Translations under genes and position numbers: made by a program
Source of the DNA: Faecalibacterium prausnitzii
Lineage (GTDB): Bacteria > Bacillota > Clostridia > Oscillospirales > Ruminococcaceae
DNA length: 44,885 nt
NCBI RefSeq assembly: GCF_003287495.1
Contig: NZ_PRLE01000009.1
Coordinates: 1-44,885 of the forward strand
Direction: 5' to 3'
The notes under the pieces: model-generated
What the model saw: the letters and a program-made list of their open reading frames with translations, nothing else
Databases searched by the model: none
What the model was told of the DNA's origin: nothing
In this document: one piece after another, positions 1 to 42,162 of the stretch
How positions within the stretch are numbered: position 1 is the first letter of the stretch
Layout of the letters: every line of letters starts with the position of its first letter

Positions 1-4
1 ATAG

Positions 5-103
5 CGTGTTTATTTAAAAGAAGATTGCGATTGTGCTACAAATTTTCAGGAAGTTTATGTGCATCTATACGATTTTGAAAAATTTTGTGGACAAACGAAA
101 TAA
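5..103 (+). pseudogene. C-terminal gene remnant
   Basis: After a TAG at 2-4, an open frame of 32 codons runs to TAA at 101-103. It reads like a natural protein C-terminus, ending in YVHLYDFEKFCGQTK. No start codon or ribosome binding site is visible, and the window edge may hide more of the gene. The family is not recognised. It is the first of several broken C-terminal pieces in this AT-rich stretch. The remaining DNA up to 241 holds no supported gene. Confidence 0.3.
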
Positions 104-241
104 ATCAGGCTTAAATTTCGTTATCTAAACAAAAAAGCAAGGCGGGAAGGTTTGATGATTTGTAAAAAATGAGGGCATAAAAATAAAGTAGGCGTTTGAT
201 ATTGCCAGCGATGTGGGCAGTAGTGAAAGAAGGTATAGACA

Positions 242-631
242 ATGAAGAAAACTTTATATACATTTTTGGTTTGGAATTTTCTGTTGTTTGTAGCTGGTTT
301 AAGTGATATTGTTTTTTATAGAAATCTTACATCGGTAGAAGGTATGACAATAAGCTGGACCCAGCCAGCGCTTGTAAGTATTACTTCATTTTTAATATTG
401 CTTTCAATATATTATGGGATGCACCAGCTCCTTTTCGGGAAAAATTTTTATTTGAAACTGGAAATCAAGCAGGAAGACATAGATAAATTGCGAAATTCAA
501 TTTATGATTTTCTGAAAAAAGGCGAAATTGACCCCGAAAAATTGCAGCAACACTTGAAGTGTTTGATAATTGCTGAAGTTGTTTTGTGGGGTGGATTCAT
601 CGTTTACTTATTTATATCAAAGGGCTACTAA
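242..631 (+). CDS. small membrane protein, unknown function
   Basis: This 129-residue protein is not recognised. Three hydrophobic stretches are visible: residues about 5-25, about 40-62 and about 107-126. A charged segment of about 40 residues, rich in Lys, Glu and Asp, separates the second from the third. AAGAAGG lies about 8 bases before the ATG and can serve as ribosome binding site. The gene is AT-rich, like the others in this island. Its size, membrane character and neighbours (other orphan small genes and C-terminal fragments) would suit an immunity protein, but that is inference from context only. Confidence 0.6.
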   Translation: MKKTLYTFLVWNFLLFVAGLSDIVFYRNLTSVEGMTISWTQPALVSITSFLILLSIYYGMHQLLFGKNFYLKLEIKQEDIDKLRNSIYDFLKKGEIDPEKLQQHLKCLIIAEVVLWGGFIVYLFISKGY

Positions 632-655
632 TTTTCAATTCTAATAATGGGGTAA

Positions 656-766
656 AGTGGTACGAATGAAAAAGATACAGAACTTTTTCTCGACGATTTT
701 GCAAAAGCTGTGGAAAAGTTCGATAACTATCGTTTAGCATTAAAAACTACGGAAGCTTTACGCTGA
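656..766 (+). pseudogene. C-terminal gene remnant (charged, helical)
   Basis: A 36-codon open frame starts after a TAA at 653-655 and ends at TGA 764-766. It encodes a highly charged, probably helical tail (FLDDFAKAVEKFDNYRLALK). It has no start codon with a ribosome binding site in frame. It lies between two small intact genes, in the same arrangement as the fragments at 1460-1573 and 2875-3006. Its family is not recognised. Confidence 0.3.
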
Positions 767-819
767 AAGCTGTAACTTTAAGCAGACCGGAAAGCTTATA
801 ATGAGGGTAGAACAGAAAT

Positions 820-1230
820 ATGACCAACGAAGATACCACTGATTTTGACGAGCACTTCGCTAAAATTTCGTCCTATATTGTGGACACATTGCACGGCGTT
901 CCACTTGAGATGACCGAGGATGAAAAAGAACAATTTCGCATACAGGTTATTTCAAATCAGTATGCAGAACGGTTGCTAAGTGAAGCCGAAAAGACAGAAA
1001 CGTATAGAGGTTTATCAAAAATTGATATTCTCCATACAGTTTCTATCCCTCAACTGGCTAGAACAATCCCACTTAAAGGTTTGAATCTCAGTTTAGAAAA
1101 ATACAGAATGCCGGATGGTGTAATAATAGAGGTTGAGAGTTCGTCACATTATTTGGGGTCATTTAGTGAGAAAAATGATTCTTCCACAAATTGGATAGAA
1201 AAGATCATGGAGGGTGTCGGTATTCACTAG
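820..1230 (+). CDS. hypothetical protein
   Basis: This 136-residue acidic soluble protein has no signal peptide and no obvious membrane segment. Its start is uncertain because the only purine-rich site (GAGGG, 803-807) lies 12 bases before the ATG. I do not recognise the family. The first half is rich in Glu, Asp and Lys, and the middle (LSKIDILHTVSIPQLARTIP) looks folded. It sits in the AT-rich array of small genes. An immunity-type role is possible but nothing in the sequence proves it. Confidence 0.55.
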   Translation: MTNEDTTDFDEHFAKISSYIVDTLHGVPLEMTEDEKEQFRIQVISNQYAERLLSEAEKTETYRGLSKIDILHTVSIPQLARTIPLKGLNLSLEKYRMPDGVIIEVESSSHYLGSFSEKNDSSTNWIEKIMEGVGIH

Positions 1231-1459
1231 ATGGATTCTCAAGAAGCATAAACAGCCCGCTATTTGCAGAGAATTCTGGAAGAAAATTGAAGAAAGCATC
1301 CTTCCGGCAACAGCACCCCGGACGTTTGTGAACTCTCACAACAGAGATCAAGAACCAATCCCTGCTTTGCGCTTACACCGTTTTGGTGACATTTTTTCTC
1401 CGTCTTGCTACAATATTGTGGATTTTTTCTATTTGTGCTTTGCTATTATCAACATCTAA

Positions 1460-1573
1460 AATGGAAACCGTGATGGAGGTGATTCCAATGCAGATAATTT
1501 CCTTGAAAACAAATTGAATGCTTTGGCAAACGGTGGCCAGTTCTCCATTTCCTACGACATCACGATTCCGTAA
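1460..1573 (+). pseudogene. C-terminal module remnant starting with the GDSNA junction
   Basis: Thirty-seven codons are open from just after a TAA (1457-1459) to TAA 1571-1573. The peptide begins NGNRDGGDSNADNFL and ends FSISYDITIP. Codons for GDSNA coincide with a 19-bp sequence (1476-1494) that recurs at 2873-2891, where it also opens an unrelated C-terminal fragment. The stretch 1231-1459 before it contains no gene I can support. A small gene follows at 1669. This layout fits a displaced toxin tip with its immunity gene, which is an inference. Confidence 0.35.
1476..1494 (+). repeat. 19-bp direct repeat, copy 1
   Basis: GAGGTGATTCCAATGCAGA occurs here and again at 2873-2891. In both copies the frame GGT GAT TCC AAT GCA opens a C-terminal coding fragment. 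The other frame also offers an SD-like GAGGTG followed by an ATG, but that ATG opens only a very short peptide. Confidence 0.7.
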
Positions 1574-1597
1574 TAAAAGCATTAGATAATGGGTATA

Positions 1598-1641
1598 AAA
1601 GCCACGATTCTTTAGAGTCGAAAGAAAAGAATCGTGGCTTT
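1598..1641. terminator. perfect 16-bp inverted repeat, probable bidirectional terminator
   Basis: AAAGCCACGATTCTTT (1598-1613) and its exact complement (1626-1641) are separated by 12 bases. The arms end in runs of A or T, so a transcript from either strand would form a stable stem ending in a few U residues. It follows directly after the remnant that stops at 1573 and precedes the gene at 1669. Confidence 0.55.
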
Positions 1642-1668
1642 GTACGTTTGAATTATGGAGCAAGCCAA

Positions 1669-2109
1669 ATGAATAAGAAATTGGAATTTTTTAGCAGTAT
1701 GGCGGTTGCCTTTATAGTTTTGATATTGGTCTTTCTTTGCATTCGTTTTTCAGGTCAGGGAAAATTTGCTACACATGGAGGAACCAATCCGTCTGATGTA
1801 AAATGTATTTATACTTCAGTTTGGCCGGATAATGAATACACTAGGCTTATTTGTGAGCCGGAAAGTGGAACGATAGAATATATATTGGATGGTTCTAATG
1901 CTGGGTATTATGCAATCTTTTATAATAATATCTCTGAAGAAGAAATACAAAAATATATTGACCAATTGAAAACCTTAGGATACGCTGAAGAGGCATCGGC
2001 TTCAGAAAGCGTTTCGACAGGCGTTTTGCTAAGAAAAGATGAAACATGGATAAGCATTGCATACTCAGAGGGAGGATTTGGAATCCGGATTTCAGTAGAA
2101 AAATCCTGA
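1669..2109 (+). CDS. hypothetical protein with N-terminal membrane anchor
   Basis: This 146-residue protein begins with one hydrophobic segment (residues about 9-29), which is an uncleaved anchor or signal. A soluble domain of about 115 residues follows, probably outside the membrane. The ATG at 1669 is preferred because GGAG sits 8 bases upstream; an alternative start at 1648 lacks a site. The domain contains EEEIQKYIDQLKTLGY, a helix typical of small secreted alpha/beta domains, but I cannot name the family. It follows the GDSNA-type remnant and a strong hairpin, so it may be that module's partner gene (inference). Confidence 0.6.
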   Translation: MNKKLEFFSSMAVAFIVLILVFLCIRFSGQGKFATHGGTNPSDVKCIYTSVWPDNEYTRLICEPESGTIEYILDGSNAGYYAIFYNNISEEEIQKYIDQLKTLGYAEEASASESVSTGVLLRKDETWISIAYSEGGFGIRISVEKS

Positions 2110-2246
2110 ATAAAAGAGATGCTGGGGAATCCCGGTTATCCCTATGATGCAGTGGAAAGAAAATGGATTGCTCAATATTGGAGGCTCCAACCACAGCTTC
2201 TTTGTTGAAATGTTAATCAGTTAGATACCGCCAGACGGTTTATTTA

Positions 2247-2408
2247 GAACGAGGTTAAGTTGGAACAGCCGATGCCACACTCGGAACAAACAATAGCGGA
2301 GGCCGTACAAGATATGTGCTAGTATGGGAGAAAGATGGCATATCACATACGATCATTGGAAAGATACCGCGTGAAGAGATTCTAAAAATTGCAGAGAGCA
2401 TTTCCTAA
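2247..2408 (+). pseudogene. DUF4367-like C-terminal fragment
   Basis: An open frame after TAG 2244-2246 runs to TAA 2406-2408. It encodes a tail with YVLVWEKDGISHTIIGK followed by IPREEILKIAESIS. This resembles the end of DUF4367 domains (a tryptophan-containing strand, then a helix that ends in IAESI). The domain's first half and any start codon are missing. The rest of 2110-2597 contains only similar unreadable remnants and the hairpin at 2425. Confidence 0.45.
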
Positions 2409-2424
2409 CTGGCTGAATTTTTGC

Positions 2425-2465
2425 CCACACGCTTGTAATTATTTACAAATGTGTGGACACTTTTT
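2425..2465 (+). terminator. rho-independent terminator
   Basis: CCACAC and TTGTAA pair with TTACAA and GTGTGG around a short loop (2425-2456), and TTTTT follows at 2461-2465. It lies 16 bases after the stop of the DUF4367-like fragment, as expected for that gene's original terminator. Confidence 0.65.
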
Positions 2466-2597
2466 CGTTGAAGCGTCCAAAGCTGACAAGATTTTGAACT
2501 TTTTTCAAAAAAGCTGTCACAAACGCAGTGTGAGCAACGTTGACTAAGCAAAAGCTCCTGGGGGAGTGTACAAAATGGAGGTTATTCATTAATCAAA

Positions 2598-2804
2598 ATG
2601 ACGAAAGAAGAAATCATTTCCATGCTATCAAAGGAATTGAACAGTGAATGGACGAATGGAGTCACATGTTTGATGGTGGAAAATTCCGATAGCTATATTC
2701 CAGTAATAGTTCATCACAATAAAAATGAACTTATTGTTGAAGTAGGAGAACAAGACAAGAAGATTTACCGCATCGGACGAAATGAGCTAAATAAAACATC
2801 TTAG
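2598..2804 (+). CDS. small hypothetical protein
   Basis: This 68-residue soluble, acidic protein has no recognisable family. Its predicted pattern is a short helix (residues 3-15) and then several strands (TCLMVENSDSYIPVIVHHNK). The nearest SD-like GGAGG is 16 bases upstream, which is too far for efficient initiation. The gene may therefore be weakly translated or be a decayed piece of a larger one. Confidence 0.4.
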   Translation: MTKEEIISMLSKELNSEWTNGVTCLMVENSDSYIPVIVHHNKNELIVEVGEQDKKIYRIGRNELNKTS

Positions 2805-2872
2805 TCATCACCAAAAAAATCATTGAAATCAGTCACAATTTGACGCATAGAATATGAATTCAAACTTGATAT

Positions 2873-2891
2873 GAGGTGATTCCAATGCAGA
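2873..2891 (+). repeat. 19-bp direct repeat, copy 2
   Basis: This is an exact copy of GAGGTGATTCCAATGCAGA at 1476-1494. The copies are 1397 bp apart and in the same orientation. The sequences on either side are unrelated. Confidence 0.7.
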
Positions 2892-3006
2892 AAAAATAGA
2901 ACACATATTTCGAAAATATTGCTACCATCAAACTGTCAAAGAATACAAGTCAAACGGTTCTTTGATTCGTTCTAAAACGGATTACTATCAGGCTATTGGT
3001 GGTTAA
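2875..3006 (+). pseudogene. C-terminal module remnant starting with the GDSNA junction
   Basis: The frame opens after TGA 2872-2874 and runs 43 codons to TAA 3004-3006. It starts GDSNAEKIEHIFRKYCYHQ and continues as a basic, Lys- and Tyr-rich tail. Apart from the shared GDSNA start it does not resemble the fragment at 1460-1573. A membrane-protein gene starts 30 bases later. A basic C-terminal tip followed at once by a small partner gene is the usual look of an orphan polymorphic-toxin module, but the toxic activity is unproven. Confidence 0.35.
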
Positions 3007-3036
3007 GTCACTCCGTTTGTAAGGAAAGGGTTGAAA

Positions 3037-3423
3037 ATGGATTTTCTTAAACAAAAAGGGCCATTAGCAAGAGAATTCTGCAACACGTTGATTTACATTA
3101 TTTCGTTAGTGTCATTAAAGCCTTCAAGCCTTCAGAGGGTGTTGACAGAACTTCAATGGAATGGGATGTGGTTCTTTTCTCTGGCATTTTTCGCTGTCAT
3201 CTTTATGGAAATGCTGTCCGATTTTTTGCTGGTTACAGATCGCTGCACTGCATGGAAAGCATTAAATGGAAATGTCAGCGAAGCCGAATTTCACAATCTT
3301 CAGCAGATTGTCCTATGCGAAAATCAGAAAGTTTCCATTGAGAAGAAACTTGCAAGTACGATACTACTGGTTCTGATGATATGTGCAACTGCTGCATTTG
3401 TGTGGTTTACCTTTTTGGTATAA
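3037..3423 (+). CDS. small membrane protein, unknown function
   Basis: The protein has 128 residues from the ATG at 3037. AAGGAAAGGG ends 6 bases before this ATG, which makes it a better start than the TTG at 3031. Hydrophobic segments are visible at residues about 14-30, about 42-62 and about 106-126. The loop between the second and third is charged and about 40 residues long. It directly follows a GDSNA-type C-terminal fragment, so a membrane immunity protein is a reasonable guess. The next gene starts 9 bases after its stop, which suggests joint transcription. Confidence 0.6.
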   Translation: MDFLKQKGPLAREFCNTLIYIISLVSLKPSSLQRVLTELQWNGMWFFSLAFFAVIFMEMLSDFLLVTDRCTAWKALNGNVSEAEFHNLQQIVLCENQKVSIEKKLASTILLVLMICATAAFVWFTFLV

Positions 3424-3432
3424 GGTTTTGTT

Positions 3433-3972
3433 ATGAAAGAGATAATTATTATACCACATATTGGAATTGGACAATTAAAATTAGGTATGGCACCAGATGA
3501 GCTAGAAAATGCTCTTCTACAAATGAAGAAACAGTGGTCGAATTCTTCTGATGAAGCAATGCAAATGGAGCGTTGTGCTGAAACTGGTGATCCTAATTTG
3601 ATAACAGGACGATATATGGATAATGATTCGTTCTTTCTGGTGCAGTATCGGAACGGAAAAGCTACTGAAATCGGCATCCAGAGAGAGTTGTCTAAAGTGG
3701 CATCAATAAAATTGTTCGGGCTGGATATGTTTAATACAACCGCCGAGTGTATTATTGATAGCTTAATGAAAAAGGACAACGTTGTTTGCAACGAAAAGGA
3801 CTTGCAACTGGGAACGGAATATCTTTTCCCTGAAATTGGAGTCCGACTTTGGAGAGAGCGAGCATTTCATCTCAAACTGTTGAAAGACCCGTTATACATG
3901 GAAGAGATGCAGGCTGTATTAGAAGACGAATATCAGTATCAATACTTCCAGATGGTTACTGTGATAGGTTGA
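3433..3972 (+). CDS. hypothetical protein, possible immunity type
   Basis: This 179-residue soluble acidic protein opens with IIIPHIGIGQLKLGMAPDEL. The pattern 'GIG-x-LKLGM-x-x-DEL' is common at the start of small bacterial proteins of unknown function that often sit in toxin-immunity loci. The sequence gives no catalytic motif. It starts 9 bases after the membrane protein upstream and is probably in the same transcript. Codon use is AT-rich like its neighbours. Function remains unknown. Confidence 0.6.
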   Translation: MKEIIIIPHIGIGQLKLGMAPDELENALLQMKKQWSNSSDEAMQMERCAETGDPNLITGRYMDNDSFFLVQYRNGKATEIGIQRELSKVASIKLFGLDMFNTTAECIIDSLMKKDNVVCNEKDLQLGTEYLFPEIGVRLWRERAFHLKLLKDPLYMEEMQAVLEDEYQYQYFQMVTVIG

Positions 3973-4062
3973 ATTGCTAACGATCAATGGGATTTGATAT
4001 AACTTTTCCGCTTGTAGTACATAGCGATGACCACAGCTATCTGCTAATACGGGTGAACTAAT

Positions 4063-4401
4063 TTGAAGTATTTTATTGACGAAGATCAAAGAAAAGCCTC
4101 ACACAGCAGCTGCTACTTGGAATTTCAACAAGGGCAGTATCATGACAAGTGCTGGCTTGACACATCTATTAGCATCAGTGATGAAGTATGGAATAGCCGC
4201 CATGTTTCAGATCTGATTCTTGAAGTGATTCCAGAGTTTGACTTTTATGGAATAACAATCGTTACAAAAGTACAATGGGATAATATTTTAACAAAAAGTC
4301 AATCGGATGGATGTACTTGCAAAGAGATTATTGCAGAAGCAGTTCCTTGGGCAGCAAAGTGTTTTGAAACGAATGATGTGTTCACTATCATAGGGATGTG
4401 A
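4063..4401 (+). CDS. hypothetical protein
   Basis: This 112-residue soluble protein would start at a TTG; no ATG in frame lies near, and no clear SD is seen, so the start may be elsewhere or the gene may have lost its true start. The sequence alternates strands and helices (FYGITIVTKVQWDNIL, then KEIIAEAVPWAAKCF). I do not recognise its family. It lies in the run of small immunity-like genes. Confidence 0.45.
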   Translation: MKYFIDEDQRKASHSSCYLEFQQGQYHDKCWLDTSISISDEVWNSRHVSDLILEVIPEFDFYGITIVTKVQWDNILTKSQSDGCTCKEIIAEAVPWAAKCFETNDVFTIIGM

Positions 4402-4449
4402 GTCGAACTTTCTCGGAGAATAACAGTGATACACAAAGGAGAGTGTAAC

Positions 4450-4658
4450 ATGAAAAAATTCTTACAGCAATCGTATCGGTAAGCATATTTATTGTTGGAA
4501 TTTTGCTTATACTTTGTGCGGACACTAATTTTTTATGGTATGCCTTTAATCAAAATGTTCGCCTTACAGTAGTTGCAGGGATTCTCATTGCACTTGTTGG
4601 TGGCGTTGGTGTGATAATGAATCTTTGGTGTATTCTAAAAGAATTGTACAGTAAATAG
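4450..4658 (+). pseudogene. frameshifted small membrane protein
   Basis: GGAGAG lies just before an ATG at 4450 that is followed by six A residues. In the present frame translation stops after 10 codons. If the A run were seven bases long, the frame would continue as MKKILTAIVSVSIFIVGILL and run to TAG 4656-4658, giving a 69-residue protein with two membrane segments. The single-base loss in a homopolymer may be decay, phase variation, a site for slippage or a sequencing error. Confidence 0.65.
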
Positions 4659-4769
4659 TTTATTGAAGGTTAAACTTCTAATCTGCCATGGTCGCGGCCG
4701 AGCGAGAGATAATGTTCAATCTCACCACCCAGTACAAGCTGGGCGTACTCCAAAGATTTATTCTAACGA

Positions 4770-4835
4770 ATGAATATTCTGCGCTTTAAACAATTTAATG
4801 ACGAATATATTGTGCAATACAGAGAATTTCAATAG
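4770..4835 (+). pseudogene. short C-terminal remnant at island boundary
   Basis: Twenty-one codons (MNILRFKQFNDEYIVQYREF plus one) end at TAG 4833-4835, just before the toxin-antitoxin promoter. They look like the end of a lost protein. Together with the GC-rich patch at 4688-4760 they mark a junction between the AT-rich array and the next module. Family unknown. Confidence 0.25.
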
Positions 4836-4850
4836 TGGCTTCGCGCTTGA

Positions 4851-4879
4851 TTGACTTGCAACGCAAAATGCGTTACAAT
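4851..4879 (+). promoter_or_regulatory. toxin-antitoxin promoter with operator in the spacer
   Basis: TTGACT (4851-4856), a 17-base spacer and TACAAT (4874-4879) form a near-consensus promoter. The spacer contains the palindrome AACGCA-AAA-TGCGTT (4860-4874), whose right end overlaps the -10. RelB-family antitoxins bind such dyads in their own promoter, so autorepression is the likely regulation. Confidence 0.8.
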
Positions 4880-4897
4880 AAAATTGAGGTGATAACC

Positions 4898-5203
4898 ATG
4901 GAAAAAACAATGACACTTAACCTTCGTGTCAACCCTACCGTCAAACAGCAAGCCGAAGATGTACTGAAGCAGCTCGGCATCCCGATGGCAACCGCCATTG
5001 ATATGTACCTGCGCCAGATCACCCTGACTGGCGGCATTCCCTTCTCGCTGTCCCTGCCGAAGGCTCCTGCGGCGCTGAACGCCGATACCATGACCGATGA
5101 CCAGCTCCATGCAGCCTTGCAGGTGGGCATCAAGGAGATTCAGAACGGTGATACCGTGGATGCCGCAAGCGCATTCGCACAGTTCAGGGAACAGCACAGA
5201 TGA
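4898..5203 (+). CDS. RelB/DinJ family antitoxin
   Basis: The 101-residue protein begins with a ribbon-helix-helix DNA-binding segment (TMTLNLRVNPTVKQQAEDVL, then the LGIPMATAIDMYLRQI helix). This is the hallmark of the RelB/DinJ family. The C-terminal part would wrap around and neutralise the toxin encoded next. I chose the ATG at 4898, which has GAGGTG upstream; an in-frame GTG at 4835 lies upstream of the promoter and cannot be the start. The stop overlaps the toxin start by four bases, which implies translational coupling. It should repress its own promoter through the dyad at 4860-4874. Confidence 0.88.
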   Translation: MEKTMTLNLRVNPTVKQQAEDVLKQLGIPMATAIDMYLRQITLTGGIPFSLSLPKAPAALNADTMTDDQLHAALQVGIKEIQNGDTVDAASAFAQFREQHR

Positions 5204-5520
5204 AGCAGTATGACGTGAAAATTTCCCGTTCGGCACTCAGTGATATGGAGCAGATTTACAGCTACATTGCTGACCGTCTGCTGGAGCCTGACACAGCTAT
5301 GGGGCAGTATAACCGCATTGCAGAGGCCATCCAATCGCTGAACATCCTGCCGGAACGCTGTGCGCTGGTTGAAAGCGAGCCGGAGCGCACCCAAGGACTG
5401 CGGCAGATGCTGGTGGACAACTACTCGGTATTCTACATCGTGGGCGAAAATACCGTGTCGGTGGCCCGTGTGCTGTACAGTGCATCCGACCTTGTGCGCC
5501 GTCTGCGGAGAATGAAGTGA
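5200..5520 (+). CDS. RelE/ParE family toxin
   Basis: This 106-residue basic protein has the RelE/ParE fold pattern: an N-terminal strand with 'VKISRSALSDMEQIYSYIADRL', a central helical pair and C-terminal strands (YSVFYIVGENTVSVARVLYS). The family contains ribosome-dependent mRNases (RelE, YafQ) and gyrase poisons (ParE). The pairing with a DinJ-like antitoxin favours the mRNA-cleaving branch, but the target cannot be read with certainty. The gene starts within the antitoxin stop (ATGA). The recombinase gene begins 13 bases after its stop, so the pair may help keep the element. Confidence 0.85.
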   Translation: MKQYDVKISRSALSDMEQIYSYIADRLLEPDTAMGQYNRIAEAIQSLNILPERCALVESEPERTQGLRQMLVDNYSVFYIVGENTVSVARVLYSASDLVRRLRRMK

Positions 5521-5533
5521 AAGGGGTGTTTGC

Positions 5534-7192
5534 ATGACCGCCGTGATTTACGCCCGCTATTCCAGCGATAACCAGCGTGAGGAATCCATCGAAGGTCAGA
5601 TTCGCGAGTGTACGGCCTACGCCGAAAAGAACGGCATTACCGTGGTCAAGCACTACATTGACCGCGCCCTTTCCGCCAAAACCGATAACCGCCCGGACTT
5701 CCAACAGATGATCAAGGACAGCGAAAAACGGCTGTTTGACATCGTGCTGGTCTGGAAACTCGACCGTTTTGCCCGGAACCGCTATGATTCAGCGCACTAT
5801 GAGTACCAGTTGGAACGAAATCATGTCAAGCTGGTGTCTGCCACGGAGCCCATCTCTGACAGCCCTGCGGGTATCATGGTCAAGAGTATGCTCACCGGCA
5901 TGGCTGAATACTACTCGGCAGAACTTTCTGAAAAAGTTGTGCGCGGCATGACCGAGAATGTTCTGAAGGGGAAGTACAACGGCGGCACGATTCCCATTGG
6001 TTTTAAGGTAGATGAGGAGAAGTTCTTTCAAGTCGACCCGCTGAAAGCTCCCTTTGTGGCAGAAGCCTTCCAGCGGTACAACGATGGTGCGACCATGAAG
6101 GAACTGATGAACTGGCTGAACGACAGCGGTGTGACTACCAACCGCAATCAGAAGTTTACCTACAACAGTGTTCAGAAGCTGTTGACGAATAAGCGGTACA
6201 TCGGAGAAAACCACTTCAAGGACATTGTGATGCCCGACAGTATCCCGGCCATCGTGGACAAGGACTTGTTTGAAGAAGTGCAGCAAAAAATCAAGAAGAA
6301 CAGCCGCGCTCCTGCCCGTCACAAAGCCGAGGACGATTACTTGCTCACCACCAAGCTGTTCTGCGGAATGTGCGGCGCGATGATGTTCGGCGAGTGCGGT
6401 ACGGGTAGAAACAAGGTCGTTCATCATTATTATAAGTGCGCCACCGCGAAGCGTTTCAAGACCTGCAAGAAAAAGACCGTCCGTAAAGAGTGGCTGGAAG
6501 ATTTGGTCATAGCTGAAACCATGAAGCTGATTCAGGACGATTCCGTGATTGATGCCATCGTTGCAGAAGTCATGGAGTTGCAGGATCGGGAAAACACCAC
6601 TCTCCCTTTGCTGGAAAAGCAGATGCGCGAGGTAGAGAACGGCATTGAGAATATGCTGAACGCCATTCAAGCTGGTGTGCTGACCAACTCCACCAAATTG
6701 CGGCTGGAAAAGCTGGAAGCCCAGCAGAAAGAACTTGAGATTCGGATCGCCGAAGAAAAAATCGCTCGGCCTCGGTTGAGTGAAAATCAGGTTCGGTTCT
6801 GGCTGACCCGGTTCCGCAAGCTCGACCCGAACGTGAAAAGCCACCGGGAAACGCTTATCAATACATTCGTGAACGCCGTTTATCTCTATGATGAAAAAGT
6901 TTTGATTACATTCAACTACAAAGACGGCACAAAAACCATCACTTTCGATGAAATCGCCGCCAAAGATGCCCCAGAGGGCAATGGTTCGGATTTAGGTTGC
7001 TTCGCTCCACCAAGAGAACGCTTGTGTAGAAATACACGAGCGTTTTTCTTTTGCACAAACAGCAAACTCACGCAGGCGGGTGGATTCGAACAGGGCGGCG
7101 GTGCAAAGCACCGTAAGCAATCAGCCCAGTGCAACGACGACGACCACTGCCTGCGGCAGAAACAGGGAGGAGTTGTTGGGGCCGCGTTCTGA
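5534..7192 (+). CDS. large serine recombinase
   Basis: The product has 552 residues. The N-terminal catalytic domain (about 1-150) holds VIYARYSSDNQ with the nucleophile Ser10, plus the KLDRFARNRYD motif. A recombinase domain follows (about 160-260), then a zinc-ribbon (CGMCGAMMFGECG, later C-x-C pairs, about 278-315) and a coiled coil (about 360-420). This architecture belongs to integrases of phages and integrative elements in Firmicutes. AAGGGG lies 8 bases before the ATG. The last 60 or so residues have a different composition and are encoded across a terminator hairpin, so the original protein probably ended near codon 490. It is likely the mobility gene of the island. Confidence 0.9.
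   Translation: MTAVIYARYSSDNQREESIEGQIRECTAYAEKNGITVVKHYIDRALSAKTDNRPDFQQMIKDSEKRLFDIVLVWKLDRFARNRYDSAHYEYQLERNHVKLVSATEPISDSPAGIMVKSMLTGMAEYYSAELSEKVVRGMTENVLKGKYNGGTIPIGFKVDEEKFFQVDPLKAPFVAEAFQRYNDGATMKELMNWLNDSGVTTNRNQKFTYNSVQKLLTNKRYIGENHFKDIVMPDSIPAIVDKDLFEEVQQKIKKNSRAPARHKAEDDYLLTTKLFCGMCGAMMFGECGTGRNKVVHHYYKCATAKRFKTCKKKTVRKEWLEDLVIAETMKLIQDDSVIDAIVAEVMELQDRENTTLPLLEKQMREVENGIENMLNAIQAGVLTNSTKLRLEKLEAQQKELEIRIAEEKIARPRLSENQVRFWLTRFRKLDPNVKSHRETLINTFVNAVYLYDEKVLITFNYKDGTKTITFDEIAAKDAPEGNGSDLGCFAPPRERLCRNTRAFFFCTNSKLTQAGGFEQGGGAKHRKQSAQCNDDDHCLRQKQGGVVGAAF
7018..7047 (+). terminator. terminator hairpin inside the recombinase reading frame
   Basis: ACGCT-T-GTGTA pairs with TACAC-G-AGCGT around a GAAA tetraloop, and five T residues follow. 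It lies about 150 bases before the stop codon of the recombinase frame, which indicates that the annotated C-terminus is read through from a shortened or frame-changed gene end. Confidence 0.75.
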
Positions 7193-29539: not shown

Positions 29540-29582
29540 AAAACAGGAGCTGCACCCGTTTGGCGGGCACAGCTCCTGTTTT
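29540..29582. terminator. bidirectional terminator
   Basis: AAAACAGGAGCTG and its exact complement enclose a loop that itself forms CCCG/CGGG pairs. It serves the hydrolase gene and the convergent ilvD. Confidence 0.9.
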
Positions 29583-29601
29583 CATTTGCTTTCTTTTTCT
29601 T

Positions 29602-31260
29602 TTACTTCATCACAGCGCCGAGGTTTGCACTGGTGACGTAACGGGCATAGCGGCTCAGCCAGCCCGTTTTGATGTTGGGCTCCGGGGCAACATACTTGGC
29701 CTTGCGCTCGGCCAGGACCTCATCGGAGACTTCCAGCGTGATGCTGGCGTTGGGGATGTCGATGTGGATGATGTCCCCTTCCTCCACGAGGCCAATGGGG
29801 CCGCCGGAAGCCGCTTCGGGGCTGACGTGACCGATGGAAGCGCCGCGGCTTGCACCGGAGAAGCGGCCATCGGTGATGAGGGCCACGCTCTTATCCAGCT
29901 TCATACCGGCCAGGGCAGAGGTGGGGTTGAGCATCTCCCGCATACCGGGGCCGCCCTTGGGGCCCTCGTAGCGGATGACCACCACGTCGCCCGGGACGAT
30001 CTGGCCTGCGTAGATGGCCGCAATGGCGGTCTCCTCGCTGTTGAAGACACGAGCCGGGCCAGAGTGCTCCTGCATCTCGGGAGCCACGGCGCTCCGCTTG
30101 ACCACACAGCCGTCCGGTGCGATGTTGCCCCAGAGGATCTGGAGACCGCCGGTGGGGCTGTAGGGGTCGTCGATGGGACGGATGGCCTTTTCGTTGAGGA
30201 TGTGGGCCCCCTGGATGTTCTCCCCCAGCGTCTTGCCGGTCACGGTGGGCACATCGAGATCCAGCAGGTTCTTCTTGGCCAGCTCTGCCTGCACCGCGGC
30301 GATGCCGCCGGCGGCATACAGGTCCGGCATGTGGGTGGGGCCTGCGGGAGCCAGATGGCAGAGGTTCGGGGTGCGGGCACTGATCTCATTGAAGAGCTTC
30401 AGGTCCACAGGCACGCCTGCCTCATAGGCAATGGCCAGCAGGTGGAGGACGGTGTTGGTGGAGCAGCCCAGAGCCATATCGCAGGTCAGTGCGTTGCGGA
30501 TGGAGCGCTCGTTGATGATCTGGCGGGCCGTGATGCCCTTTTTGACCATCTCCATAATGGCCATGCCGGAGTGCTTGGCCAGCTGCAGGCGCTTGGAGTA
30601 GACGGCCGGGATGGTGCCGTTGCCGGGCAGCGCAATGCCGATGGCCTCGCACAGGCAGTTCATGCTGTTGGCAGTGTACATACCAGAGCAGGAGCCGCAG
30701 CTGGGGCAGCAGTTGCAGGTGCAGTCTTCCAGCTGTTCGTCGTTGATGAGGCCTGCTTTATAGGCACCCACCGCCTCGAACATCTTGGAGAGGCTGACCT
30801 CCTCGCCGCCGTAGGTACCGGCCAGCATGGGGCCGCCGGAGCAGACCACCGCAGGCACATCCATGCGGACGGCTGCCATGACCATGCCGGGCACGATCTT
30901 ATCACAGTTGGGCACCAGCACAAGGCCGTCCAGCTGGTGGGCCATGGTCATAGTCTCCACGCTGTCGCAGATGAGCTCGCGGGAAGCCAGCGAATATTTC
31001 ATGCCCACATGGCCCATGGCGATGCCGTCGCACACGCCGATGGCCGGGATCAGGATGGGGGTGCCGCCTGCCATCTGGATGCCTGCCTTAACGGCGTCGG
31101 CCACCTTATCCAGGTTCATGTGGCCGGGCACGATTTCACTGTAGGCACTCACCACGCCGATGAGGGGGCGCTCCAGCTCTTCCGGGGTGTAGCCCAGTGC
31201 ATAGAACAGGCTGCGGTTGGGCGCGCGCTCCACGCCCTTAGTCACGTTGTCGCTTCTCAT
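29602..31260 (-). CDS. ilvD: dihydroxy-acid dehydratase
   Basis: The 552-residue iron-sulfur enzyme dehydrates dihydroxyisovalerate and dihydroxymethylvalerate to the keto acids for valine and isoleucine. Cluster-binding cysteines are seen in [10 protein letters not shown] and [17 protein letters not shown]. Length is normal. It is the last gene of the ilvB-ilvN-ilvC-ilvD order. A 204-base gap with dispersed repeats separates it from ilvC, so mRNA processing or partial termination may lower its expression. GAGGAACAAACC precedes the ATG. Confidence 0.96.
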
Positions 31261-31288
31261 GGTTTGTTCCTCTTTTCCTTATAACAAA

Positions 31289-36317: not shown

Positions 36318-37292
36318 TCAGCTCAGCCGGTTCAGCCGGACTGCCACATAGGGGTCCGGGAGTTTGAGCTCATCGGCCAGGTCTTCCTCGCTGGCGTATT
36401 TTTCTGCCGCAATGCCCACCAGCACGCTGCAGGTATCGAACCGCCCCTCCGGGGAGAGGGCCGTGATCTTTGCCTCACCGTCCGCGACCGCGGTCACCAC
36501 GCCGTTGGGGTCCACGGTGGCCACACCGGGGTTAGAGCTCACCCAGGTGATGGGGACGCTCCCGCCGCTTTCCAACGCCACAGAGGCCGTCAGAGTCTCT
36601 TTGCTGCCCACCGTTTTAAAGAGCAGGTCGTTCTTGTTCAGCGTCACACGGCCAATGTCCGAAGTGACGGTCACGGTACACCGCACGGCCTGCCCGTTGG
36701 AAGCCAGCGCCGTGATGGTGGCACCGCCGGTTCCCTGTGCCGTCACCAGACCGTTTTCATCTACCGTAGCCACCTCCGGGTTGGAGCTCAGCCACTGGTA
36801 AACATAAATAAAGGAGTGGTCATTGTTGATGAGCTTCAGCTGTTTTGTGGGGTGGAGATCATCATATTTCAGGGCTAAGCTCAGGCTGCTCTGATCCAGA
36901 GCCGGCTTTTTGGCCTCGCCCCCCGCGCTCTCCTTGGTCACCGTCACCTTGCAGGCTGCCCGGTCCCCCCGGTCTGAGATGGCCGTAATGGTCGCGGTAC
37001 CCGCGCTCCGCCCGGTCACCTTGCCGTCGCCATCCACCGTGGCCACGGTGGGGTTGGAGCTCATCCAGACGATGAAATAATAATCGCTGCCGCTGCCGGT
37101 GTAGAGGTAGGCTCTGGGGCGAGGGTCTTCCTCCGTGATCTCCAGGTTCATTTCCGTCACTTCCAGCTCCAGCCCTTTGCTGCCCGGCTGGGGTGCGGGA
37201 GCCGCCTGGGCCATCAGCCCGGAAGCCAGCAGCACCCCGCTGAGGGCAAGCGCCGCCAGAAGCCGCCCAGTTTTCTGCATCCTATGTCTCAT
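36318..37292 (-). CDS. secreted protein with three Big_2 (Ig-like) domains
   Basis: The 324-residue protein has a signal peptide (MQKTGRLLAALALSGVLLAS, then AQAA). Three bacterial Ig-like domains of group 2 follow, each recognised by 'W-x-SSNP-x-VATVD-x-x-G-x-VT' (about residues 75-120, 165-215 and 245-295). The domains mediate surface adhesion or protein contacts. No cell-wall sorting motif or S-layer domain follows, so it is either released or held by other means. The start at 37292 has GGAGGG upstream. A strong promoter and a 22-bp palindrome precede it. Confidence 0.85.
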   Translation of the reverse strand: MRHRMQKTGRLLAALALSGVLLASGLMAQAAPAPQPGSKGLELEVTEMNLEITEEDPRPRAYLYTGSGSDYYFIVWMSSNPTVATVDGDGKVTGRSAGTATITAISDRGDRAACKVTVTKESAGGEAKKPALDQSSLSLALKYDDLHPTKQLKLINNDHSFIYVYQWLSSNPEVATVDENGLVTAQGTGGATITALASNGQAVRCTVTVTSDIGRVTLNKNDLLFKTVGSKETLTASVALESGGSVPITWVSSNPGVATVDPNGVVTAVADGEAKITALSPEGRFDTCSVLVGIAAEKYASEEDLADELKLPDPYVAVRLNRLS

Positions 37293-37385
37293 CGGGTCGT
37301 CTTCCCTCCTGTCATCCGTTTTGCTGTTTGGATAAGATGCCGCACGCATGTCATTTTTCAGTACAAATTCTCCCACTTACAGCTT

Positions 37386-38221: not shown

Positions 38222-38264
38222 GAATCATTCCTATTTATGGCCTGCCAAGAATTTTCTTTTGTTT

Positions 38265-41069
38265 TTAGCCATTATGCTGTTTGAGGGCACAGACAGCCAG
38301 GCTCAGGGCACTCCAGGCGGCCTGATACATCAGCACCATGACTACCGACAGCATCCCGACGCTGCCCGCGTAGGTCAGCAGCACCCCGATGACCACCGAG
38401 AACCACACCGACACCAGCTGTACCGTTGTGGCGCTGTTCTCGGCGTTCTGGGCCTGCTCCGCGGCACGCAAGCCGCCTGTCAGGCTGGCAAAGCCCTGGG
38501 TGTGGATCATACAGCAGGTCTCCGCGTTTTCCGCCGCCGGGGCTGCCTGTTCGGCTGCCGCAAGGGAGGTGCACTGCTCCTGATCCAGCAGCGTCACCAT
38601 GCCCTCAGGCAGGTGATACACCTCGGCGATCTGCCGGGCCGTCAGGCTGGGGTCCTCGCAGGAGACCAGCAGGCGGATGTTCTCTTTCTGGAGCATCTCC
38701 AGCCCGCGGGCCGCATTCCGCCCACCCACATAGTGGAGGACGAACATGGCGTGCAGATTGCCGGACACGGCCAGATACAAGATCTGCAGCGTGCCGTTCT
38801 GGGAGTGCTTCTGCTCGTATTCCAGTTCAGGCAGGGGCACGCCCTCCCGCTCCATGTACGCCCGGTTGCCAATGAGGACGCGGTTGTTATCGCACCAGGC
38901 CGCAAAGCCCAGGCCCTGGTGCACTTCCAGGTCCTTGATCGGGTAGAGGATATCGGTGCGGTCCTCAATGATCTGCCGGAACAATCCCCGCAGCGCGGCG
39001 CAGCTCTGGTTGAGCACGCTGGCCGAGTAGAGAATGGCCCGGTCGATGCGGCCGCCCTTGAAGATGCGGATGTCTTCCAGCATGGCGCTGTCCGCCGTAA
39101 AGAGTTCGTCCGCGTCCACCTGCACGGTGTCCACGCCGCCCAACTCTTCCACCGCTGCCCAGCCCGGGATGACAGCACCTGCCGCCGCAGCGGTCCGCTG
39201 CAGCCGCAGGGAGGCCACACCTGCCACCAATGTGGAGGAGAGGGGCGCGCCCATGCAGAGTATGGCGGTCAGGGCCGCCGCGCCGCCGCTGATGCCGCCG
39301 CCAAACAGCAGGAACACCAACCCGGCCAGCACACCGGCAGCCAGCAGGATGTACGCGGTCTTCCGGGCACGGCGCTCACTGGCCCGCTCCCCAAAGCTCT
39401 GCTCCACCAGCTTTTCATCCCAATCGGTGGGGCGGCTGAGGAGGATCCAGGGGTCTTTCTGGTCCAGACTCCGGGAGAGCATCCGGATCAGGTCTTTGTC
39501 TTTCACCCGGTAAGCGCCCCGGTGCTCCGGCTCGCTCATGGCCAGATCGTAGCCGCCTTTCACGGCAGCCAGCTGCACCCGGCTGCCCAGCAGGGCCATA
39601 AACAGGCCCAGTGCCGCGATGCCGGAGAGGATCGTAAAGCTGGAAGTCTGGTAGCTCTGGGCGTTCAGCAGGGCGACGACCGCCTCCAGCAGGGCCGCAC
39701 AGGCGGCCAGCGCGGGCATGGTGTCGCTGCTGGGGCGTCCATCCTTTTTCAGGCCCAGCAGACCGTCCCGCAGCACGGGGGCCGCCACGGCCATGGCCGC
39801 CGCCAGGAACAGCAGGTTGGCGGCATAGAACGCCGCCGGGGCCACTACAGGGTCCAGCGCTGCCAGCGGAGCCAGAAGCCCTTCTGCCACCAGTCCAAAG
39901 TGGAGCAGCACCGCGGCCAGGATACCGCCCAGCACACAGCGCAATGTAAGGGCTGCGCCCATCTTGCGCAGCTTTTCGCCGACCTCTTCCGGGGTGGCGG
40001 GAGCCTCCTCGCCTGCCGGCTCTGCCTCGGCTGCCGGGGTCCCGTCCACAGGCACTTCTGCCGTGGATGCTTCCGCAGCCGGAGCGGCCTTGAGGGCCTC
40101 CACCGGCGGCTCTTCCGAAGGATTGCCCTCGTTGTCCAGCCCGATGAGCGGCAGGCTCATGCTGTCGTCCGGGCCGGGAGCCGTTTCCCGGGTGGGTGCC
40201 TTCACTTCATCATCGGCTTTCCCAAAGAAGCGGAACGCCGGGATCTCCGTCGTCTTCTCCTTGCCGCTCTCCGGCTCTGCCGCAGTTTCCATGCGGGGTG
40301 TCGGCTGGGATGTCACCGGCAGCTTTTCCGGAGTTTTCTCCGGCTCTGCAGGAGTCTTGGGCGGCTCCGGAGCTGCCTTGTCCTCTGCAAACACCAAACC
40401 GGTCAGGGGGCTGGCAGGCAATGTCTCCGTCTGCTTGGGTGCAGACTTTGCAGGCGCTTTCGGCTTGCCAAAGAGCATGGCTTTCAGCTCTTTCATCTCC
40501 TCGTCTTCCCGCTGCTCCATGGCACTGCGGGACGCAGCCGACTGATCGAGTTTCTGCTTTTTCGTTTCATTACTGGGTGCCGGAGCGGTTGCCTTGTTCT
40601 CCGGTTTTTCTTTCTTCACCGGCTCCGCGGGCTTTGCCGGTTCTGCCGGTTTCACGGGCTCCGGTGCGGGCGCTTCCGGTTTTGCAGGCTCCTGCGGTGC
40701 CTTTTCCGGCGTGGCAGGTACAGGCTGCTTTTTTGGCTCCGGCATGACCGGCTGTTCCGCAGCAGCCTCTTCCGGTTCCAGCACCAGTTCCAGATCGGCC
40801 TGAGGCTCCTCGGCGTCATCGCCCAAAACAATTTCCCCCGTGGGCGGCAGCTCCAGCCCGCGCTCCGCCGGTTTCTTTGTTTCCGGTTCCGGCTTTCCGC
40901 GTTGGAACAGCCCCCCGAACAGCCCGCGTTTGGGCGGCGTTTCCTCTTCTTCACGGCGGCTCATGGCCTCCGGTACCTGCGCCACGCTGGTGCTGAAGAA
41001 CGTGCGGAATTTCTCTGCCGCGATCTCTTCCTGCGTCAGCTCTTTGCGGCGCTTATCCTCTTTTGGCAT
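38265..41069 (-). CDS. pseudo-P1B-type ATPase with long disordered N-terminus
   Basis: The 934-residue protein starts with about 360 residues rich in Pro, Glu, Ala and Lys (KPAEPAKPAEPVK repeats). From about 370 it follows a P1B ATPase: paired membrane helices, a 'SSDTMPALAACAALL' segment, a helix pair near 570-615 with CMGAP in place of CPC, then VDTVQVDADELFTAD (Asp652) where DKTGTLT is expected. VLIGNRAYMEREGV matches the nucleotide domain and LLVSCEDPSLTARQIAEVY matches the TGD region with TGD replaced. GDGxND is not found. It is therefore probably unable to form the phosphoenzyme. GGGAGG precedes the start. Confidence 0.75.
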   Translation of the reverse strand: MPKEDKRRKELTQEEIAAEKFRTFFSTSVAQVPEAMSRREEEETPPKRGLFGGLFQRGKPEPETKKPAERGLELPPTGEIVLGDDAEEPQADLELVLEPEEAAAEQPVMPEPKKQPVPATPEKAPQEPAKPEAPAPEPVKPAEPAKPAEPVKKEKPENKATAPAPSNETKKQKLDQSAASRSAMEQREDEEMKELKAMLFGKPKAPAKSAPKQTETLPASPLTGLVFAEDKAAPEPPKTPAEPEKTPEKLPVTSQPTPRMETAAEPESGKEKTTEIPAFRFFGKADDEVKAPTRETAPGPDDSMSLPLIGLDNEGNPSEEPPVEALKAAPAAEASTAEVPVDGTPAAEAEPAGEEAPATPEEVGEKLRKMGAALTLRCVLGGILAAVLLHFGLVAEGLLAPLAALDPVVAPAAFYAANLLFLAAAMAVAAPVLRDGLLGLKKDGRPSSDTMPALAACAALLEAVVALLNAQSYQTSSFTILSGIAALGLFMALLGSRVQLAAVKGGYDLAMSEPEHRGAYRVKDKDLIRMLSRSLDQKDPWILLSRPTDWDEKLVEQSFGERASERRARKTAYILLAAGVLAGLVFLLFGGGISGGAAALTAILCMGAPLSSTLVAGVASLRLQRTAAAAGAVIPGWAAVEELGGVDTVQVDADELFTADSAMLEDIRIFKGGRIDRAILYSASVLNQSCAALRGLFRQIIEDRTDILYPIKDLEVHQGLGFAAWCDNNRVLIGNRAYMEREGVPLPELEYEQKHSQNGTLQILYLAVSGNLHAMFVLHYVGGRNAARGLEMLQKENIRLLVSCEDPSLTARQIAEVYHLPEGMVTLLDQEQCTSLAAAEQAAPAAENAETCCMIHTQGFASLTGGLRAAEQAQNAENSATTVQLVSVWFSVVIGVLLTYAGSVGMLSVVMVLMYQAAWSALSLAVCALKQHNG

Positions 41070-41104
41070 CCTTGTCCCTCCCTGTTTTTTTGGAGTCCAC
41101 CTGC

Positions 41105-41920
41105 TCAGGCGTTTTTGGCGGCACGCTGCGACTGGATCTCATACAGGATGATGCCCGCCGCCACCGAGACATTGAAGCTGTCCACACCGGTGCCCTCGGC
41201 AGCCATATCCAGCCGCACCACACCGTCGCAGAGCTTCTTTACCAGCTGGGATACCCCGCTGCCCTCGCTGCCCATTACCAGTGCAATGGGACCGGTGAGG
41301 TTGTTCTTGCGCAGCGGCACACCGTCCATATCGGCGCAGTAGACGAACACGCCCTGCTCTTTCAGGCGGCGGATGGTTTCACCGATGTTCGCTACCCGGG
41401 CCACGGGCAGGCGCTCGGCCGCGCCCGCGCTGGACTTGATGACGGTAGGCGTCACGGACGCGCCGCCCCGCTTTGGGATGACGATGCCGTGGGCACCGCA
41501 GAGCAGTGCGCTCCGCATCACCGCGCCCAGATTATGGGGGTCCTCAATGCCGTCGCTCAGCACCAGAAACGGGGGCTCGCCCTTGGCTTTTGCAGCCTCC
41601 AGCAGGTCTTCCACCGTCACATACTCGATCTCACTGGCAAACGCCGCCACGCCCTGGTGGCTGTCCGTACCGGTCATCAGCCGGAGCTTGTTGGGGTTCA
41701 CCCGCTTGACGGCAGCGCCCACTTCCTTGGCCATGGCGGTGTAGTAGGCCGCCACAGCCGGGGCCATGCCCTCGGCCAGCAGCACGGTATCCACGCCAGA
41801 ACCGCTCTTGAGCAGTTCGGTCACGGGGTTTTTGCCGTAGACCAGGCTCTCGTTCTTGGCTGCTTTGGGCTGCTCGTCCGTATTACGGCGGGGACGGCGC
41901 GGGGTATTTTTTTCTTCCAT
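41105..41920 (-). CDS. rlmB: SpoU-family 23S rRNA 2'-O-methyltransferase (RlmB/TrmH)
   Basis: The 271-residue protein has an N-terminal RNA-binding domain (LVYGKNPVTELLKSG) and a SpoU knot domain. The three motifs are PHNLGAVMRSALLCGA, IALVMGSEGSGVS and VDSFNVSVAAGIILYE. This layout is that of RlmB, which methylates G2251 of 23S rRNA; related enzymes act on tRNA, so the target is likely but not certain. A basic tail precedes the domain. GAGGAGAA lies before ATG 41920. The large protein upstream in coordinates starts 35 bases after its stop and may be co-transcribed. Confidence 0.9.
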   Translation of the reverse strand: MEEKNTPRRPRRNTDEQPKAAKNESLVYGKNPVTELLKSGSGVDTVLLAEGMAPAVAAYYTAMAKEVGAAVKRVNPNKLRLMTGTDSHQGVAAFASEIEYVTVEDLLEAAKAKGEPPFLVLSDGIEDPHNLGAVMRSALLCGAHGIVIPKRGGASVTPTVIKSSAGAAERLPVARVANIGETIRRLKEQGVFVYCADMDGVPLRKNNLTGPIALVMGSEGSGVSQLVKKLCDGVVRLDMAAEGTGVDSFNVSVAAGIILYEIQSQRAAKNA

Positions 41921-42162
41921 GGGTCGTTCTCCTCTCAATTTCTATGGAAAGACGCTTCCTGCATCTGAAAGTTTCCTGTTTTTGTGACAGAATCCGATAT
42001 TGATTCATCTTGAAGTATAACATAAGCGGACTTTCTTTGCCATAGAATTGCGGTTTTTTCTTCCAGAGAATTTCCCGCTTCCACCCAAGACGCCCCGCCC
42101 GGGTATAAAGAAGTGTTGCCAGCTCCCGGGCAAAATATCCGTCCCATTTCCGGGCGGTGGTG

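Follow-up and report, generated by a model that had tools for sequence, protein, structure and literature searches.

Few transporters have been studied as closely as the P-type ATPases. Those that most resemble the protein reported here are the CopA-like copper pumps of the P1B type, in which the Glu and His of the SEHP motif contact adenine. In the accessible part of an account of the mammalian P5-ATPases, the catalytically dead forms are laboratory mutants only (PMC5837089). Among the matches listed from the open-licence literature there is no description of the present protein, nor of a conserved P-type ATPase family that is dead for catalysis. The protein is encoded by a 44,885-nucleotide stretch of Faecalibacterium prausnitzii DNA (assembly GCF_003287495.1, contig NZ_PRLE01000009.1; hereafter the window), and an original prediction made from the letters alone had read it as a pump-like protein kept for a new role, such as that of a sensor or scaffold. 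Our sequence comparisons and models indicate that this 934-residue protein is a P1B-ATPase in fold that fails the chemical motifs defining the class; hence, it does not belong with the functional P1B pumps. It is characterized by these elements:

38265..41069, minus strand: the pseudo-P1B-ATPase gene (934 amino acids; stop codon included)
41075..41083, minus strand: a Shine-Dalgarno-like AGGGAGGGA before the ATG
39981..41069, minus strand: an N-terminal tail rich in Pro, Glu, Lys and Ala, residues 1 to about 363 (from composition, with the boundary taken from the profile match)
38268..39980, minus strand: the P1B-fold core with membrane helices, a remnant A domain and P and N domains (residues 364-934)

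A P1B fold without the catalytic motifs

The predicted structure displays the P1B fold: membrane helices combined with the actuator (A), phosphorylation (P) and nucleotide-binding (N) domains, of which the A domain is much reduced. A structure prediction had been proposed as a check on the original reading, which a model lacking any P-type fold would have overturned; instead, the P1B-like order of domains given there is seen in the model as well as in a profile-profile comparison against genuine pumps (probability 99.9%, E 1.4e-31, 481 columns). The actuator remnants that it listed correspond to about 50 residues, from which TGES is missing. Searches with the single sequence give a fainter picture: no family was matched in a Pfam search of the 934-residue protein, and the hits in NCBIfam (CopA, 1.6e-9, residues 577-822, far under the cut-off) and in a phmmer search of PDB (LpCopA, 4.6e-5, residues 576-831) are weak CopA-type matches, all lying inside residues 554-841. 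The closest named relatives are from F. hattorii and F. longum, with 81% and 78% identity over the core.

To count motifs we used a family set consisting of the open reading frames (ORFs), from the loci compared, that span the greater part of the family profile without containing DKTGT, to which locus L121 was later restored. The profile score separates these from pumps: 136 family ORFs score at least 322 bits and the DKTGT-bearing pumps at most 197, with L121 (412 bits) counted apart. The latter, from Gemmiger formicilis, was considered as an evolutionary intermediate and rejected: its letters DKTGT fall at residue 115 of the tail, and the real site is without them. In 72 loci gathered without any rule on DKTGT, the 72 family ORFs or fragments also have no DKTG at the site; 69 of them belong to the family set, and the other three are L121 and two fragments (L110 and L111). 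All counts out of 110 below refer to cores distinct by their last 560 residues, including the window protein and leaving aside the fragments or split ORFs L028, L029, L033, L055, L110 and L111.

The Pro of CPC and the Asp of DKTG lie 43 residues apart in all 71 aligned members and all 19 genuine pumps compared, and the distance from the DKTG Asp to the TGD Asp is 153-154 residues in 69 of the 71 members and 17 of the 19 pumps. With spacings that match in this way, the motif sites can be read with confidence. In the window protein they are:

39096..39116, minus strand: the DKTGTxT site, now DADELFT (residues 652-658)
38652..38660, minus strand: the TGD site, now C804-E805-D806
39240..39248, minus strand: the intramembrane CPC site, now A608-P609-L610

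The replacement of DKTGTLT by DADELFT and of TGD by CED, both read from the letters in the original prediction, are borne out by this alignment. DKTG occurs in none of the 110 cores: the Lys column never holds Lys, the Thr column holds Thr in 7 and the Gly column holds Gly in 3, with Glu or Asp in its place in 84. The column of the former phospho-Asp has Asp in 65 cores, Glu in 13 and another residue (S, T, R, N, K, G, A, P or H) in 32. Across the order the site can be written approximately as (D/x)(A/D)x(E/D)(L/I)F(P/T). DADELFT, which had been put forward for a check of its conservation, is not conserved as an exact word, being present in only 6 of the 110 relatives. At the aligned TGD site the Asp is kept in 109 cores, Thr in 32 and Gly in none; the letters TGD are present elsewhere in 6. 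The loss of CPC likewise stands (first Cys in 3/110, second Cys in 0, Pro in 98), but its successor had been placed at CMGAP, whereas the exact site is A608-P609-L610, the end of that word. GDGxND was said to be lost, and GDGxxD is found in 0/110 cores; counted from the TGD Asp, 121-129 residues remain up to the C-terminus in the family versus 152-265 in the 19 pumps, as would be expected if the GDGxND loop had been deleted. TGES is similarly seen in 0/110, with a bare TGE triplet somewhere in 12, and the aligned SEHP columns show Glu in 1, His in 0 and Pro in 15. Other positions have become conserved in a family-specific manner, namely A774 (101/110), F776 (105), Y780 (101) and W725 (89).

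Computation across the family therefore shows a loss throughout of the motifs expected to serve in phosphorylation and dephosphorylation, in the binding of Mg2+ and metal, and in contact with adenine, and the loss of catalysis is, at the level of sequence, very well supported. Two other uses of such a core have to be weighed against this pattern. It could be an atypical active pump that relies on a different acceptor residue or energy source, as the persistence of an acidic residue at the phospho-site in many members and of the TGD Asp in nearly all might be taken to imply. We regard this as very improbable: the residues of DKTG beyond the Asp have disappeared together with GDGxND, TGES and the CPC cysteines, the acceptor column itself holds a non-acidic residue in nearly a third of the cores, the A domain is cut down and the post-TGD segment is shorter than in any of the pumps compared. 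Alternatively, the dead core might be a sensor that binds a ligand such as a nucleotide, a metal or a lipid and reports through the tail, with binding in the absence of turnover as its function. The near-complete loss of the SEHP Glu and His and of the CPC cysteines speaks against this reading, and we consider a sensor unlikely.

Phyletic range and selection

Of 248 genomes sampled across the order, 242 carry a single match at E <= 1e-50. In G573, one of the six without a strong match, a divergent copy (7.3e-37, profile positions 3-533) lies just downstream of an rlmB gene above its cut-off. Across 293 genomes drawn from the class as a whole, 14 of the 15 that belong to the window's order have a full-length match (E <= 4.5e-97), and among the matches listed for the 278 genomes of other orders there is no full-length copy, the best being 3.2e-39. 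As these listed matches reach about 3e-30, with at most a few candidates scored per genome, a strongly diverged copy in another order is possible. Some match is found in 273 of the 278 and none in 5; the listed ones fall on the part of genuine pumps that comprises the P and N domains (profile positions about 194-497). A match at E <= 0.001 is seen in 58 of 61 close genomes, some of these matches being genuine pumps. In GTDB usage the order is probably Oscillospirales, to which the named relatives (Faecalibacterium, Gemmiger, Oscillospiraceae, Ruminococcaceae and others) point.

The ratio of nonsynonymous (dN) to synonymous (dS) substitution rates, computed within Faecalibacterium only, against eight homologues, is 0.15-0.29 for the core and 0.25-0.42 for the tail, with dS near saturation. 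By these ratios the pseudo-ATPase gene is under purifying selection and not decaying, which, together with the family-wide loss of motifs, agrees with the original proposal of a gene kept without its catalytic motifs. The marks of a conserved pseudoenzyme are seen here: orthologues in many genera, missing catalytic motifs and, as measured within Faecalibacterium, sequence constraint. The family gene is split into two ORFs in L033 (4164-6560) and L055 (7221-9448), by damage or sequencing error. The other five genomes of the order without a strong match (G344, G384, G393, G399 and G500, which are 95-100% complete) have neither the pseudo-ATPase gene nor an RlmB above the cut-off; we rejected this joint loss as functional evidence, since the two genes adjoin and one deletion or assembly gap would explain it.

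Faecalibacterium and Gemmiger, both abundant gut bacteria, thus belong to an order in which nearly all genomes sampled carry a dead pump-like protein. Such near-universal conservation in single copy suggests an important function that is absent from the families searched.

The N-terminal tail

The first 360 residues of the window protein contain 59 Pro, 60 Glu, 36 Lys and 52 Ala. This is the composition given in the original prediction for its tail of about 360 residues, to which we add that the tail is N-terminal. Across the family the tails range from 5 to 702 residues, with a median of about 300, and are rich in Glu, Ala, Pro and Lys; they are presumably cytosolic and disordered. The model of the homologue L120 has a tail mostly at 31-41 in predicted local-distance difference test score, in which the first tail motif forms a confident helix followed by about 160 disordered residues.

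Two short motifs recur in the 104 tails of at least 60 residues: an N-terminal helix-like motif of the type VDDILEEI in 64 and the pattern FxxFFxxxVx in 41. Both are present in 13, at least one in 92 and neither in 12, with frequencies of 0.27% (helix-like) and 0.01% (FxxFFxxxVx) in shuffled tails. The second occurs in the window protein:

40980..41009, minus strand: tail motif FRTFFSTSVA, residues 21-30, matching FxxFFxxxVx

The idea that the N-terminal motif is a tag common to other proteins was rejected, as no sign of this was seen within a strict DNA pattern for it in 12 genomes. The 14 sites found comprise 10 in the family and 4 elsewhere. Of these four, three lie near the C-terminus of a pyridoxal phosphate enzyme, presumably O-acetylhomoserine sulfhydrylase, and one is in what by eye is presumably a small S4-like protein.

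Gene, reading frame and genomic neighbourhood

The gene is an uninterrupted ORF that begins with ATG and lies on the minus strand, which the original prediction left unstated, and, with the Shine-Dalgarno-like stretch upstream, the intact 934-codon frame with a good start is as first described. An antisense ORF spanning the whole gene (38259-41342, plus strand, 1027 amino acids, TTG start) was rejected as a gene: the homology is carried by the minus frame and not by this overlapping one, which is fully open across the gene in many, not all, of the 31 relatives examined. Its openness is probably due to third-position guanine-plus-cytosine (GC) content in a GC-rich gene. Other long antisense ORFs in the GC-rich window, such as 29560-31284 (plus strand) over 29602-31260 (minus strand), look like the same effect.

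Directly upstream is the neighbour that recurs in most loci of the family:

41105..41938, minus strand: rlmB, 23S rRNA (guanosine(2251)-2'-O)-methyltransferase

This is the sole RlmB above the cut-off in its genome. Of 98 loci (the window included; not deduplicated, with 2 duplicates found among 95), 93 have a same-strand rlmB-like ORF upstream, at a median gap of 22 base pairs (bp). The gap is below 100 bp in 89 loci, 183 and 239 bp in two, and over 1 kb in L033 and L055, where the second piece of the split ORF was measured and the first starts a few bases past rlmB; small overlaps arise from taking ORFs at their longest. Three of the loci without upstream rlmB (L127, L133 and L151) run into the end of a contig, and two (L035 and L053) are truly without it, their genomes carrying rlmB elsewhere. 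A Merdimmobilis rlmB fused to a long ORF was treated as an assembly artefact, the stretch having a long run of N and repeats.

The downstream side was scanned through 67 next ORFs (62 of 64 on the same strand and 5 of 26 on the opposite one). It is diverse: 18 EF-G-like proteins, 8 PASTA kinases, 5 rubrerythrins and, in single loci, an Era-like GTPase with a KH domain, YebC, Lon and DUF4321. In 30 of the 98 loci an EF-G-like GTPase is encoded downstream of the rlmB/pseudo-ATPase pair (e.g. L049 5859-8021; L031 15204-17282), and the PASTA Ser/Thr kinase is the next gene in a group of Oscillospiraceae (e.g. L139 7699-9498). In L053 the upstream gene is, named by eye, presumably Obg.

Part of this context may point away from translation. 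In L035 a FtsW/RodA-type gene (by Pfam) is directly upstream and DUF4321 directly downstream, ORFs resembling that FtsW/RodA-type gene are near the locus in L039 and L046, and in L046 what we take by eye to be FtsZ is nearby. Along with the PASTA kinases, these might indicate an adaptor for cell division or the cell wall with no link to translation, to which rlmB is a mere transcriptional companion. Each such context is a minority, set against an upstream rlmB in almost every locus, and we consider this reading quite unlikely; the neighbourhood by itself cannot separate a translation-linked from a division-linked role.

Elsewhere in the window, an ORF with bacterial Ig-like (Big_2) domains is near the locus (36318-37376, minus strand). 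At its far end (region 1-5500) the first 4 kb have a GC content of 36-38%, versus 52-64% from 6 kb onward, and a large serine recombinase (Resolvase, Recombinase and Zn-ribbon domains; 5534-7192) follows the low-GC stretch, which suggests an inserted mobile element.

A candidate membrane scaffold

The reading that we favour as probable is that the protein is a P-type-ATPase pseudoenzyme retained to serve as a membrane scaffold, with a tail that would bind a partner in the cytosol. Its derivation from a CopA-like P1B-ATPase is what sequence and model both indicate, and the retained shape suggests that the pump has been put to a different job; the scaffold role is what we infer from this. The membrane helices would be the anchor, and the P and N domains, in which the most conserved surfaces are new ones (AMF...Y, GxSxW and DPNIT), would provide a binding platform instead of a motor. 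The N-terminal tail would reach into the cytosol and hold the partner at the membrane, gripping it by one or two short motifs: the N-terminal helix of the type YSVDDILEEIRRKK, FxxFFxxxVx, or both. A first guess at the partner, and only a guess, is a translation or ribosome-assembly factor, because of the rlmB linkage and the ribosome-related neighbours in some loci (EF-G-like, Era-like, Obg and YebC). In a bolder form, which we put forward tentatively and think doubtful, a copper pump has turned into a near-universal single-copy membrane hub, its disordered tail tying a cytosolic machine, perhaps of ribosome assembly or early translation, to the membrane.

Several observations weigh against the scaffold reading. 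The absence of DKTGT was among the criteria by which the family set was selected, and score alone gives the same set. An Asp or Glu at the former phospho-site in 78 of the 110 cores and the TGD Asp in 109 leave a residual chemical role possible. The window protein carries the second tail motif alone, without the N-terminal helix motif, and 12 of the 104 tails have neither motif; the tail patterns were moreover defined on the same related sequences in which they were then counted, and loosened once. No single conserved downstream gene was seen among the family loci scanned, the ribosome-related neighbours may be hitch-hiking with rlmB, and L035, truly without an adjacent rlmB, has the FtsW/RodA-type gene in its place. 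The pseudo-ATPase is a clear experimental target.

Comparison with known systems

The CopA-like copper ATPases of the P1B type (Legionella CopA, 3rfu/4bbj) have in common with the pseudo-ATPase the order of helices, the folds of the P and N domains, the M4 proline and exactly the same distance between the CPC and DKTG sites. Unlike them, the pseudo-ATPase is without DKTG, TGES, GDGxND, SEHP and the CPC cysteine pair, has shortened A and P domains, and bears its long tail where CopA has a metal-binding domain (GMxCxxC in the pumps compared). Pseudoenzymes of other families, such as the pseudokinases, have likewise kept the fold under purifying selection with the catalytic residues gone. For the tail, a possible parallel is alphaproteobacterial PopZ, in which a short, conserved helix at the N-terminus likewise precedes a disordered stretch rich in Pro and Glu. 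PopZ, however, is soluble and oligomerises via a C-terminal region, whereas the pseudo-ATPase is predicted to be membrane-bound with a pump fold, and we claim no homology between the two.
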